From NCBI GenBank assembly GCA_029974595.1, contig JARKRC010000045.1, positions 1 through 64,000 of the forward strand: 64,000 nt of DNA. The letters are read 5' to 3'. Below the pieces are notes generated by a model. The model worked only from the letters and a program-made list of their open reading frames with translations, made no database searches and was not told where the DNA came from. Within the stretch, counting starts at the first letter, position 1. Every line of letters begins with the position of its first letter. The stretch is from Ereboglobus sp. (lineage in GTDB: Bacteria > Verrucomicrobiota > Verrucomicrobiia > Opitutales > Opitutaceae). Positions 4,630-53,623 of the stretch are shown in pieces. A program made the translations under genes and the position numbers.

Positions 4630-4704
4630 ATCGACTTAAATCGATCTGAATCGACTTAAATCGCCTCCAACCAATTCCGCATTCCGAAATCCGCATTCCG
4701 CATT
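4627..4704. repeat. short tandem words between nuoL and nuoM
   Basis: The gap is filled by repeated ATCGACTTAA-type words (4630-4664) followed by repeated ATTCCGCATTCCG-type words (4673-4704). The second type recurs at 54040-54069 and inside the formyltransferase gene at 45633-45665. Confidence 0.65.
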
Positions 4705-27106: not shown

Positions 27107-27233
27107 GATGACATGGCAAACAAGACGAAAAGTCCGCGCTGTCAAGTAGGCTGTGAAACTCGCTCCTTTCCCCAAGGTTTCCTGGCGGAAACATAAGTCA
27201 ATCCATGCGGCGTATTTCCGGTTCTGATCGGGT

Positions 27234-27285
27234 GGCACGGGCATCTTGCCCGTGCCGGGCGCAGAACATGGGCAGGATGCCCGTG
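27234..27285. repeat. paired palindromes of the CACGGGCATCCTGCCCGTG family
   Basis: The first copy (27234-27256) has 10-base perfect arms, GGCACGGGCA and TGCCCGTGCC, around TCT. The second (27268-27285) is CATGGGCAGGATGCCCGT with a similar symmetry. The same unit occurs inside the formyltransferase gene at 46230-46249. The surrounding stretch 27107-27316 has no gene. Confidence 0.75.
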
Positions 27286-27316
27286 CGACTCGATCCGGTT
27301 GTGTTTTTGGTGTTTC

Positions 27317-43879: not shown

Positions 43880-43946
43880 ACCGCGAATGAAAAGCAGCGC
43901 AGACGTTCCTGCCTGTGCGACTTTTCAAAAACCACATCGACCACCG

Positions 43947-44930
43947 ATGAGCACCACCTCCAGTCTCACACACTCTCCTTTCGCGCCGGCCATCATCGAC
44001 GTTTCCGTTGTCATCCCCGTCTACAACGAACAGGGCAATCTGCCGCTCCTCTTCCAGCGCCTCTATCCCGTGCTCGACAACCTCGGGCGCAGCTACGAGG
44101 TCATTTTCACAAACGATGGCAGCGCTGACAGCTCGATCGAGCTTCTCACCGCGCAATTCAACGCGCGCCCCGATGTCACGCGCGTCATCGATTTCAATGG
44201 CAACTACGGGCAGCACATGGCGATCATGGCCGCGTTCGAGCGCGTGCGCGGCAAGGTTATCGTGACCCTCGACGCCGATCTGCAAAACCCGCCCGAGGAA
44301 ATCCCGAAACTCCTCGAAAAAACCGACGCCGGTTACGATTGCGTCGGCGGCGCGCGCCAGAACCGGCAGGACACGATTTTCCGGCGCTACGCATCGAAGC
44401 TTGTCAACTTTGTGCGCAAGCGCTCGACCAATATCGAAATGTCCGACCAAGGCTGCATGCTTCGCGCTTACAGCTGCGCCGTGGTCGAGGGGATCGTGCG
44501 CAGCGGCGCGATCAACACCTTCATTCCCGCGCTCGCCTACACGCTTGCGAAAAAACCGACCGAGGTTCCCGTCAGGCACGAGGAGCGGCACGCGGGCGTG
44601 TCGAATTATTCCATCGGAAAACTCATCCGCCTGAACTTCGACCTCATCACGGCGTTTACCATATCGCCGCTCCAGTGGTTCACGACCTTCGCGCTCGCCT
44701 GCTCCGGCGGCAGCCTTTTCCTCGTGCTCGTCCTCGCTTTCCGCCGCATCTTTCTCGGCGCCGAGGCCGAGGGCCTTTTCACGCTGTTCGGCGTTTTGTT
44801 CTTCCTGATAAGCGTCTGCATGGTCGGCATCGGCCTCATCGGGGAATACGTCGGAAGAACCTACCAGGTCGTCCGCGGACGGACGCGCTATCAGGTTAAC
44901 CGGGTGCTGGAGAAAGACGCACAGGAGTGA
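43947..44930 (+). CDS. arnC: undecaprenyl-phosphate 4-deoxy-4-formamido-L-arabinose transferase
   Basis: ArnC is a GT2 enzyme that loads Ara4-formyl-N onto undecaprenyl phosphate. The 327-residue product (E. coli about 322) has VSVVIPVYNEQGNLPLLFQR, the metal/nucleotide motif VTLDADLQNPPEEIPKL, and two C-terminal membrane helices ending GEYVGRTYQVVRGRTRY. The ATG at 43947 is preferred to 43887 because it fits family length. The inverted repeat of the four-helix-bundle cassette begins one base after its stop. Confidence 0.93.
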   Translation: MSTTSSLTHSPFAPAIIDVSVVIPVYNEQGNLPLLFQRLYPVLDNLGRSYEVIFTNDGSADSSIELLTAQFNARPDVTRVIDFNGNYGQHMAIMAAFERVRGKVIVTLDADLQNPPEEIPKLLEKTDAGYDCVGGARQNRQDTIFRRYASKLVNFVRKRSTNIEMSDQGCMLRAYSCAVVEGIVRSGAINTFIPALAYTLAKKPTEVPVRHEERHAGVSNYSIGKLIRLNFDLITAFTISPLQWFTTFALACSGGSLFLVLVLAFRRIFLGAEAEGLFTLFGVLFFLISVCMVGIGLIGEYVGRTYQVVRGRTRYQVNRVLEKDAQE

Positions 44931-44931
44931 A

Positions 44932-45420
44932 AAATCCCAAATCCCAATTTCCAAATCCCAAATAAATCCCAAACTACAAACGACAAATTGCAAAAGGAGA
45001 ACCGATGAGCGAGAAACCCAATAACTTGGAGGAGCGCACCGCAGTTTTCGCCGAGGATGTGCGCGCGTTTGTCCGGAAATTGCCGCGCACGGTTTCCAAT
45101 ATTGAGGACGTGAAGCAGCTCGTGCGCGCATCGGGCTCGATAGCGGCAAATTGCATCGAGGCGAATGAATCGCTGAGCGCGAAAGACAAGCTCATGCGTT
45201 TCCGCATCAGCCGGAAGGAGGCGAAGGAAAGCGGTCTGTGGCTGCGCCTCGTGCATTTGGGCGACGACACGAAGCAGGCCGGACGCCGCGAGTTGTTGAT
45301 AAGGGAGTCCCGCGAACTGCGCTCCATCCTCTCCGCAATCATCACAAAATTGGAATGATTCCCCGCCGCATTTTGTAATTTGGAATTTATTTGGGATTTG
45401 GAAATTGGGATTTGGGATTT
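44932..45420. mobile_element. inverted-repeat-bounded cassette carrying a four-helix-bundle gene
   Basis: Terminal arms at 44932-44980 and 45372-45420 are inverted copies, 47 of 49 bases identical, made of iterated AAATCCCAAATCCCAATTTCC words. Between them lies a single 117-codon gene with its own AAGGAG ribosome-binding site (44994-44999). The cassette interrupts the arn operon between arnC and the formyltransferase gene, with its first base one position after the arnC stop. Arms of the same iterated-word style, without a gene, occur at 1446, 2420, 23197 and 32544. No transposase is present. Confidence 0.65.
45005..45358 (+). CDS. four-helix-bundle protein, 23S intervening-sequence-protein family
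   Basis: The 117-residue product is all-helical. It shows the family pattern: DVRAFVRKLPRTVSNIEDVK, then LVRASGSIAANCIEANESLS, KLMRFRISRKEAKESGLWLR and a last helix ELRSILSAIITKLE. This family (IVP/S23, related in fold to the Avd protein of diversity-generating retroelements) was first seen inside 23S rRNA intervening sequences. Here it lies between arn genes inside a 49-base inverted repeat. It has a good ribosome-binding site, so it is probably expressed. The role is unknown. Confidence 0.9.
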   Translation: MSEKPNNLEERTAVFAEDVRAFVRKLPRTVSNIEDVKQLVRASGSIAANCIEANESLSAKDKLMRFRISRKEAKESGLWLRLVHLGDDTKQAGRRELLIRESRELRSILSAIITKLE

Positions 45421-45470
45421 CAACACACACACACACACACGAGCCTCAAAACACACACTGACACAAAGAC

Positions 45471-46535
45471 ATGAAACCACGCATTCTCTTCCTCGGTTAT
45501 AGCGAAGTGGGCTACGAATGTCTCTCACTCCTGCTCTCGCGCGGCGACAATGTGGTCGCTCTCATCACGCACGAGGACAACCCCGCCGAAAAAATCTGGT
45601 TCAAGACACCTGCCGTCGCCATCAGCAAACACAATTCCGCAATCCGCAATCCGCATTCCGCATTCACCCCCATTCCGATTTTCACGCCCGCTTCCATAAA
45701 CACTCCCGAATGGATCGCGCGCATTCGCGATGAAATCCGCCCCGATCTGATTCTCTCGGTTTACTATCGCAACATGGTCGGCGCGCGCGTGCTCGAAATC
45801 CCCCGCCTCGGCGCGTTCAACATGCACGGCTCGCTTCTTCCCAAATATCGCGGACGCGCGCCCATCAACTGGGCTGTGCTTCATGGCGAGCCGCGCATCG
45901 GCATGACGCTCCACAAAATGGTCAAACGCGCCGACGCCGGCGACATCGTCGACCAGGAAGGCGTGGACATCGGCCCGCGCGACACCGCCGAGCAGGCTTT
46001 CCGCAAGGTCCTTCCCTGTGCGCGCGCGATCCTCGAGCGCCAGATCGACGCGCTTCTCGCCGGTATCGCGCGAGCCACGCCGCAAGACGAGTCGCAGGCC
46101 ACGTATTTCGGCGGACGCAAACCGGAGGACGGTCGTATCCACTGGTCAAATACAAGCGCGCGGATCTTCAATCTCATCCGCGCCGTCACCGATCCCTATC
46201 CGGGCGCGTTTGTTGATGTGCCCGTGAAACACGGGCAGGATGCCCGTGCCAATCAACCTTCGGGCGCCGTGCCGGCGACCGCCCGCCTCATGGTGTGGTG
46301 GGCCGAGCCCGATTCGCCCGCCGTGCAAGAAACCCTGTCAAACGACGCCCGCTCGCGCCCTCATGTCACGCCCATCGCCGCGACCGCCCCGCCCATTCCG
46401 CAGCGTCCCGCGCCCGGCGAAATCCTCTCGCTTACGCCGCTCGTCGTCGCCACCGCGGATGGCGCGCTCGAACTCACCCGCACCGAATGGCGCGGCGCGC
46501 CCGCAGCGCCGCTGCGCATCGGGCAAATCCTATAA
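45471..46535 (+). CDS. arnA: UDP-Ara4N formyltransferase (ArnA N-terminal half as a separate gene)
   Basis: This enzyme formylates UDP-Ara4N with 10-formyl-tetrahydrofolate. The 354-residue product matches the ArnA N-terminal domain. Catalytic residues N117 and H119 are in GAFNMHGSLLPKYRGRAPINW, and D155 is in MVKRADAGDIV. Two insertions relative to E. coli ArnA coincide with interspersed repeats: about residues 55-66 (NSAIRNPHSAFTPI, bases 45633-45665) and about 253-260 (KHGQDARA, bases 46230-46249). In E. coli the decarboxylase is fused to this domain; here it is the next gene. Confidence 0.9.
   Translation: MKPRILFLGYSEVGYECLSLLLSRGDNVVALITHEDNPAEKIWFKTPAVAISKHNSAIRNPHSAFTPIPIFTPASINTPEWIARIRDEIRPDLILSVYYRNMVGARVLEIPRLGAFNMHGSLLPKYRGRAPINWAVLHGEPRIGMTLHKMVKRADAGDIVDQEGVDIGPRDTAEQAFRKVLPCARAILERQIDALLAGIARATPQDESQATYFGGRKPEDGRIHWSNTSARIFNLIRAVTDPYPGAFVDVPVKHGQDARANQPSGAVPATARLMVWWAEPDSPAVQETLSNDARSRPHVTPIAATAPPIPQRPAPGEILSLTPLVVATADGALELTRTEWRGAPAAPLRIGQIL
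45633..45665. repeat. in-frame copy of ATCCGCATTCCG words inside the formyltransferase gene
   Basis: Iterated CAATCCGCAATCCGCATTCC words match the spacer words at 4673-4704 and 54040-54069. They are translated as NSAIRNPHSAF, at a place where E. coli ArnA has no residues. Confidence 0.65.
46230..46249. repeat. in-frame CACGGGCAGGATGCCCGTG palindrome inside the formyltransferase gene
   Basis: The palindrome matches the intergenic copies at 27234-27285. It is translated as KHGQDARA in an extended loop after DPYPGAF. The flanking 15 codons are also absent from E. coli ArnA by my alignment from memory. Confidence 0.75.
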
Positions 46536-46605
46536 CAAGCTCGCACATCCCCGCGCCGCCTGCTTCACTTCTTAATTCTTAATTCCTACTTTCCACTTTT
46601 CACCC

Positions 46606-48596: not shown

Positions 48597-48639
48597 GTGG
48601 GACAAGGACGACTGCGAATTAGGGAGTTTCTTCGAACAA

Positions 48640-48797
48640 CGCGTGCGGCAGGGAGCGGCGTGCCTCTGGCCGCCGGACGCGACGAAGTCGCGCCTTTCGC
48701 GTGGAAACGGACATTTTATCGCGTGTTTGTCGTTTGTTTTTTGGCGAGGCTTCGCCTCGTCCGGCGGCTGGAAAGCCGCCGCTCCCTGTCGCACGCG
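48640..48797. repeat. long GC-rich inverted repeat
   Basis: The two arms, 48640-48694 and 48743-48797, are 55 bases each and inverted copies with several mismatches. Shared blocks include GCAGGGAGCGGCG and GCCGCCGGACG. The segment GGCGAGGCTTCGCCTCGTCC matches the inverse of 17-36, tying it to the repeat before nuoH. It may also end arnD and purC transcription. Confidence 0.75.
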
Positions 48798-48831
48798 TTA
48801 TTTTGATTACGACGAGGCTACGGCTGATATC

Positions 48832-53206: not shown

Positions 53207-53216
53207 TGGATTAAGA

Positions 53217-53614
53217 TTTAAGATTAAGTTTAAGATGAAGCACTCGGCGGACGAAACCTTTGAGAAACTCGACGTGTGGAAACGCAGTCATGCGCTGAGT
53301 ATCGAAATATACCGGCTGCTTGAAAAATGCAAAGATTGGGGATTCCGGGATCAGGTGACACGGGCGGCAAATAGCATATCTGACAATATTGCGGAAGGGG
53401 CGGAACGTCCCGGTAAGGCTGAATACCGCGCATTTATAGGATACGCCAAGGGATCGGCGGGCGAAACACGCTCCCAGTTGTTGCGGGCAAAAGCCCTTTG
53501 CTATATATCGGCAGTGGACGCGGATCGGCTGGTCTCAGAACTTATCGAGATTTCCCGGATGTTACGAGGCCTCTACAAGAGCATGGAGTAGCCCCCCTTA
53601 ATCTTAATCTTAAA
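53217..53614. mobile_element. second inverted-repeat-bounded four-helix-bundle cassette
   Basis: Arms TTTAAGATTAAGTTTAAG (53217-53234) and, inverted, CTTAATCTTAATCTTAAA (53597-53614) match at 17 of 18 bases. Further iterated TTAAGAT words lie outside (53210-53216). The left arm abuts the ATG of the only gene inside. The word differs from that of the first cassette, but the plan is the same: iterated A/T words, inverted, around one four-helix-bundle gene. It lies between a NERD gene and sufE. Confidence 0.55.
53235..53591 (+). CDS. four-helix-bundle protein, 23S intervening-sequence-protein family (second copy)
   Basis: The 118-residue product has the classic family start FEKLDVWKRSHALSIEIYRL. 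It continues FRDQVTRAANSISDNIAEGA, then KAEYRAFIGYAKGSAGETRS and a final helix ELIEISRMLRGLYKSM. It is only distantly similar to the copy at 45005 and belongs to the more common subfamily, so it is not a recent duplicate. The 60 codons upstream in frame are the shadow of the NERD gene. The function is unknown. Confidence 0.92.
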   Translation: MKHSADETFEKLDVWKRSHALSIEIYRLLEKCKDWGFRDQVTRAANSISDNIAEGAERPGKAEYRAFIGYAKGSAGETRSQLLRAKALCYISAVDADRLVSELIEISRMLRGLYKSME

Positions 53615-53623
53615 CTTCCCCTC

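Follow-up and report, generated by a model that had tools for sequence, protein, structure and literature searches.

A putative selfish hairpin element: an S23/IVP gene between complementary arms of seven-nucleotide words, lodged behind a stop codon between co-directional genes

Why is a single gene for a small helical protein enclosed in a long inverted repeat in the middle of an arn-like operon? The 64-kb stretch of DNA analysed here (the window, 64,000 nt) contains a left arm of iterated AAATCCC-type words (44932-44980, forward strand) and its inverted complement (45372-45420, forward strand), as delimited by inverted-repeat comparison; the arms are 49 nt long, complementary at 47 positions and separated by 391 nt, and each holds a period-7 tract (44932-44963 and 45389-45420). 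Between them lies a single ORF of 117 aa (45005-45358, forward strand), whose ribosome-binding site AAGGAG (44994-44999, forward strand), read directly, stands 5 bases ahead of the ATG. On the same strand, an ArnC-like glycosyltransferase gene (43887-44930) directly precedes the element and a formyltransferase gene (PRK06988; 45471-46535) follows it, both recognised by ORF and profile, which places the element outside the 23S rRNA gene. Because the ArnC-like ORF ends at 44930, the left arm begins one base later. The ArnC-like protein scores 330.7, below the NCBIfam equivalog cut-off of 529, and we call the neighbours arn-like.

The enclosed protein belongs to the four helix bundle/23S_rRNA_IVP family (S23 or S23/IVP), with scores of 59.8 bits for TIGR02436 (cut-off 24) and 37.3 bits for PF05635 (cut-off 33.8). 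The latter is the only Pfam match of the sole protein between the arms, and the element has no Y1 transposase of its own. An AlphaFold2 model (pLDDT 95) finds its best PDB fold matches in the S23 proteins 2rld (TM 0.79, E 5e-4) and 2gsc. The original prediction was thus correct about the 47/49 arms, the single gene with a good ribosome-binding site, the one-base distance from the arnC stop, and the membership of the protein in the family of 23S rRNA intervening sequences (IVS). Searches of Rfam with the 64-kb window, of PHROGs and PADLOC with both S23 proteins of the window, and of phage records with the protein at 45005-45358 gave no match.

That the arms exceed chance follows from two results: the predicted RNA fold of 44925-45430 reaches -204.6 kcal/mol (z -7.15, i.e., 7.15 SD under shuffles), and the window holds 11 period-7 tracts, compared with 1, 2, 1, 2 and 0 at lags of 5, 6, 8, 10 and 11. 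With a probability of roughly 0.58, we read the locus as a selfish hairpin element, in which an S23/IVP gene between complementary arms of 7-nt words has landed behind a stop codon between co-directional genes.

The window contains further elements of this kind. A second gene-bearing element, on which the original prediction was silent, occupies 53210-53617 (forward strand). TTAAG-type words, 6-7 nt long, form its two ends (53210-53234 and 53597-53617), the best ungapped arm pair measures 18 nt (score 15), and its TIGR02436 gene stands at 53235-53591. Two paired elements are gene-less and carry no assigned strand: one of CGATTTT words just ahead of an Oxidored_q3 (NADH dehydrogenase chain 6) gene (1445-1548), the other of ACGAATT words immediately following an Oxidored_q2 gene (2420-2571). 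The arm plan had been said to recur without a gene at four other places; it does so at these two, and there are also five lone word tracts, at 4674, 23302, 32547, 45636 and 46569. Among the lone tracts (likewise unstranded), that at 45636-45665 (GCAATCC/GCATTCC) lies inside the formyltransferase reading frame, where similar stretches recur in congeners, and that at 46569-46603, from the period-7 scan, lies at the junction that follows in the arn-like operon. A 60-nt GC-rich inverted repeat at 48631-48806, which by eye is not built of heptamers, has many copies in two congeners.

Gene-less relatives with the same arms are dispersed through the genome. The pattern AAATCCCAAATCCCAA, allowing at most one mismatch, has 59 hits in this genome and its reversed control none, and the AAATCCC arm sequence occurs at 29 further places. 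Nine gene-less AAATCCC pairs, read in addition to the pair in the window, have irregular arms of the same kind, with 80-213 nt between arms and therefore too little room for an S23 gene; a tenth pair has 166 nt between its arms, and several other AAATCCCAAATCCCAA hits without an ungapped partner are lone or interrupted arms. Four of the copies (L006, L013, L017 and L028) have, by eye, a common insert, GGCGGAAT.TCGCTTCGCTCGG, at the same place in the right arm, with a variant base in one of them. The 105-bp CGATTTT element (1445-1548) is similarly multi-copy, with about 15 near full-length places in one congener (G003) and 4 in another (G001; E <= 1e-20), and an S23 gene on a different contig of this genome (C22) is enclosed in the same arms, down to the inner GGGCGCTGCCGCGCC motif. 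Because AAATCCC and CGATTTT each have gene-bearing and gene-less members, at least two word families occur in both forms. In 39 random 20-kb stretches, period-7 hairpins numbered 3 in 400 kb from three genomes carrying the gene (1, 2 and 0 in G001, G005 and G022) versus 0 in 380 kb from three non-carriers, counts too small to decide. At 27226-27295 and inside several AAATCCC copies, a REP-like palindrome (GGCACGGGC...GCCCGTG) is nested in the word hairpins of this genome, which also holds Y1 transposases.

The arnC element, with its gene, is common to this genome (G000) and the two congeners G001 and G003, and its two arms differ between species in concert: AAATCCC here corresponds to AAATTCC in the congeners on both sides, and ATTTCC here to GTGATC there, again on both sides. 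The right arm in G001 has two additional mismatches. The version found in the gene-bearing arm tends to recur in the other copies of the same genome: excluding gene-bearing elements, as well as genome G002, where the arnC site was not recovered, the C version (that of the gene-bearing arm) outnumbers the T version 23 to 1 in this genome, with 5 even, while G003 has T 9, C 1 and 5 even (Fisher p 1.8e-6, which serves as a guide since copies are not independent). G001 follows the rule weakly (T 4, C 2, even 5). Three genomes that do not carry the gene gave no hit for the AAATCCC/AAATTCC arm pattern, and the reversed control pattern had two hits in G001.

At three sites, namely the gene-bearing site at 53210 and two AAATCCC sites, the element is missing in both G001 and G003. 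By eye, the spacers at these empty sites differ from the filled ones, sometimes containing other repeats, and the DNA is too different for exact ends and target duplications to be read. At the junction 2413-2578, two congeneric loci (L076 and L077) have another hairpin, of CACGGAG words, in place of the ACGAATT element, so that unrelated hairpin families occupy one junction in different genomes, as if it had been colonised repeatedly. Dispersed homologous copies and element-free sites in relatives, as expected of a transposable element, are both present here, and the status of this hairpin as an element is well supported. We infer that it is mobile and IVS-like, with non-autonomous derivatives, much as originally predicted: the gene-less copies with shared arms and the three element-free sites are observed, and movement itself is deduced from them.

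To extend the comparison beyond one operon, we scored arms as the best ungapped inverted match between the 200-250 nt flanking each side of an S23 gene, with left and right flanks from different loci as controls and a threshold score of 14. Five S23 genes were found in this genome by protein search and nine by profile search; all five of the former are flanked by inverted arms whose words differ from gene to gene, and all seven of the nine that were scored reached the threshold (AGGAGTC words flank the gene on contig C42, for example). Among this genome and its relatives, 38 of 57 genomes carry TIGR02436 by profile search, and arm pairs of at least 14 flank 25/35 loci against 2/105 mismatched-flank controls. 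The same is true of 43/80 loci across phyla (controls 4/400), with hits that include Bacteroidota, Acidobacteria, Planctomycetes, Nitrospirae and CPR, by the names in their records, and of 9/12 plasmid loci from cyanobacteria, Azospirillum and Gemmatirosa (controls 4/132). Pooled, 77/127 S23 genes have such arms versus 10/637 controls; these loci are best matches (30 of the profile-search genes, the best 80 of at least 580 confirmed loci, and 12 of 38 plasmid records), and the fractions are therefore not those of a random sample. Family members were expected to be enclosed in inverted word arms, and 77 are, but the other 50/127 lack a significant ungapped pair, which is in part what the original prediction had named as counting against it. 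A gene enclosed in word arms is nevertheless a widespread trait of the TIGR02436 family. One plasmid gene, from Picosynechococcus (L243), has AGGAGATA-type words and lies within a type III-B CRISPR operon, with cas10 on one side and cmr3 on the other.

The arms are also periodic in a specific way. In the 35-locus set, lag-7 tracts (28-nt stretches with at least 70% identity at that lag) occur in 66% of left and 63% of right near flanks, and lag-8 tracts in 6%; in the 80-locus set, the corresponding values are 29% and 32% for lag 7, and 20% and 19% for lag 8. At lag 14, twice the usual period, the share is 14-29%, compared with no more than 5% at lag 9 and 0-3% at the remaining lags; at 730-900 nt from the S23 gene, lag 7 falls to 0-3%. 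Tracts contain a median of 4.6 words (79 lag-7 tracts) or 4.5 words (26 lag-8 tracts), and 84 of 105 words include AG, versus 61 expected by shuffling. The 5' arm has more G than C in 63 of 68 cases, the arnC element being an exception. We rejected this polarity as a marker of gene direction: the two strands of an inverted repeat have the same sequence, and polarity is therefore a property of the hairpin.

Replication slippage, which expands words, and quasi-palindrome correction, which copies one arm onto the other, could in principle generate such arms passively, with neither selection nor a protein involved. We give this explanation little credence. The concerted change of both arnC arms is what it would produce, and the number of units differs among published heptamer repeats (PMC4990558; PMC4692102), but it accounts neither for the dispersed copies of one irregular arm nor for the period-7 arms beside S23 genes in many phyla that become rare 730-900 nt away. 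Slippage and quasi-palindrome correction may still explain how the arms of a selfish element stay matched.

The position of these loci in operons raises the question of the level at which the arms act. Of 68 loci with a gapped arm score of at least 14, three near contig ends were dropped; among the remaining 65, the upstream stop precedes the left arm by a median of 6 nt, both neighbours are co-directional with the S23 gene in 41, and the upstream ORF (at least 110 aa) is on the strand of the S23 gene in 59/62, three more loci having no such ORF. By comparison, 59% of 504 adjacent ORF pairs are co-directional (p 7e-11), a control for which other genomes of the order were used and ORFs were chosen in a slightly different way. 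Selection favouring read-through transcription would be enough to account for this position. The position would also suit a resident gene surrounded by a stem that serves regulation or RNA processing, insulating its transcript or offering a cut to RNase III, rather than by the ends of a mobile element; the strong predicted stem (z -7.15) and the removal of a 23S IVS by RNase III (PMC4990558) agree with that idea. We nonetheless consider it improbable, since the same arms stand elsewhere without the gene and congeners lack them at corresponding sites. Moreover, the mismatches counted in 68 of 115 gapped arm pairs, read in the sense of the gene, comprise 34 G-U and 51 A-C, and with no G-U bias in the sense strand, there is no sign of a conserved sense-RNA stem. 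Beyond the fact that a stem would form, an RNA-level role of the arms, as first proposed, is thus not indicated. Arms may instead be kept matched by DNA-level pairing or by quasi-palindrome correction.

If the arms belong to a mobile element, the enclosed protein is a candidate for moving it. The solved relatives 2gsc and 2rld each have five chains. Across 45-50 sequences, Q38, R41, S45, N49 and E75 are invariant and E52 nearly so, and five of these six residues fall on one face of helix 2, within an 80-degree sector. That S23 mobilises the element is plausible.

Avd, a pentameric protein of diversity-generating retroelements, offers a different model, in which movement would proceed by way of RNA and need a reverse transcriptase, with S23 acting as Avd does. 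The Avd chains 4dwl and 8ub7 are the next fold matches to our model (TM up to 0.72, E 0.05-0.1), amid unrelated helical bundles, and PF05635-Avd homology has been reported (PMC10053308). Yet RVT_1 was not found in 5 of 11 carrier genomes searched (G001, G004, G005, G007 and G032), which hold 7, 8, 8, 3 and 13 S23 genes, and the two RVT_1 matches of this genome are both on contigs other than that of the window (C21). A reverse transcriptase as a general need is therefore rejected, and we regard movement through RNA as very improbable.

A more serious, though unlikely, alternative is that the word hairpins, gene-bearing and gene-less, owe their movement to a different enzyme, for instance a Y1 transposase of the REP-associated kind, with the S23 gene as cargo or modulator. 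Y1_Tnp is present in 36/38 TIGR02436 carriers versus 7/19 non-carriers among the 57 genomes, an association that we cannot dismiss, and REP-like palindromes are, by eye, nested in several copies. However, two carriers with five S23 genes each (G019 and G025, drafts 97% and 95% complete) have no Y1_Tnp match, and the one S23 locus scored in each of them has arms (L042, score 21; L047, score 16). The arms themselves, moreover, are iterated heptamers and not REP palindromes.

Inverted word arms are not exclusive to S23, because genes of the GxxExxY family (TIGR04256, PDDEXK_3) show the same plan: 19/30 such loci (L080-L109), again best matches and not a random sample, have arms scoring at least 14 versus 5/90 controls, with words of the CACGGAG kind at a spacing judged by eye as roughly 7-10 nt. 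Two readings offer themselves: several gene families are drawn to the arms, or two classes run in parallel.

For the selfish hairpin element, we propose the following course of events. Operon read-through would supply the transcript of the S23 gene, and translation would rely on the ribosome-binding site that the gene brings along. S23 would form a pentameric ring that binds the word arms as hairpin DNA or RNA, perhaps at about one word per subunit. Together with host functions, this ring would place copies in new junctions, either of the element itself or, in trans, of gene-less derivatives. The classical 23S rRNA IVS may be members that landed in rRNA, where we propose that they are tolerated because RNase III removes them. 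A broader version, tentative and with the odds somewhat against it, is that S23/IVP proteins mobilise a class of hairpins spread throughout bacteria. A pentameric S23 ring would read about five 7-nt words per arm and carry both the hairpin with its own gene and gene-less ones into operon junctions, and the 23S IVS and the heptamer repeats known from Xanthomonas, Nostoc and other bacteria would have arisen by such movement, while GxxExxY proteins (PD-(D/E)XK nuclease superfamily) would drive a parallel class with wider-spaced words.

Cumulatively, these results describe a real and widespread element plan that is little recognised. S23/IVP is a common family, and the shared anatomy of one protein, word arms and gene-less copies joins three puzzles, those of S23 function, the 23S IVS and the heptamer repeats. 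It also names a candidate protein and its DNA or RNA ligand, both open to biochemical test. In the open-access literature searched, we found no paper joining the S23 family, word arms and gene-less copies.

Several known systems share parts of this anatomy. Genomes with REP/REPIN sequences hold many gene-less hairpins together with a gene-bearing RAYT partner, as gene-less hairpins abound beside gene-bearing ones here; the S23 element differs in having no Y1 transposase, in its arms of iterated heptamers and in its four-helix-bundle protein. Diversity-generating retroelements resemble it in the fold of Avd, but the S23 element is without a reverse transcriptase.

Similar in their words are heptamer repeats described for Xanthomonas (GGGAATC) and Nostoc (GGGGAYT), which, like the arms here, consist of degenerate 7-nt words, are largely intergenic and are over-represented in many bacteria (PMC4692102). 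Convergent inverted pairs number 70 and 75 in two Xanthomonas genomes, where they generally lie away from mobile elements, and are few in Nostoc (PMC4692102). Repeats of TAACTGA, also 7-nt words, occur in Beggiatoaceae, for which a repeat-binding protein of unidentified nature was proposed (PMC4679880). The main texts of PMC4692102 and PMC4679880 mention neither S23 nor the helix-bundle term; S23 genes on Nostoc and Calothrix plasmids (L237 and L240) have TAGGGAG and AGGGTGT word arms.

In the 23S rRNA IVS themselves, an S23-family gene lies between complementary ends, as at the arnC element. According to PMC4990558, a 23S IVS is excised by RNase III, an idea from 1993 cited there held that the IVS ORF served mobility, and the function and origin of IVS were still called unclear in 2016, more than 25 years after their discovery. 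The link is strengthened by the published IVS in which three tandem GACAGAT heptamers stand just ahead of the S23 gene (PMC4990558). Unlike the IVS, the elements described here occupy operon junctions, are multi-copy, comprise several word families per genome and are accompanied by gene-less derivatives.
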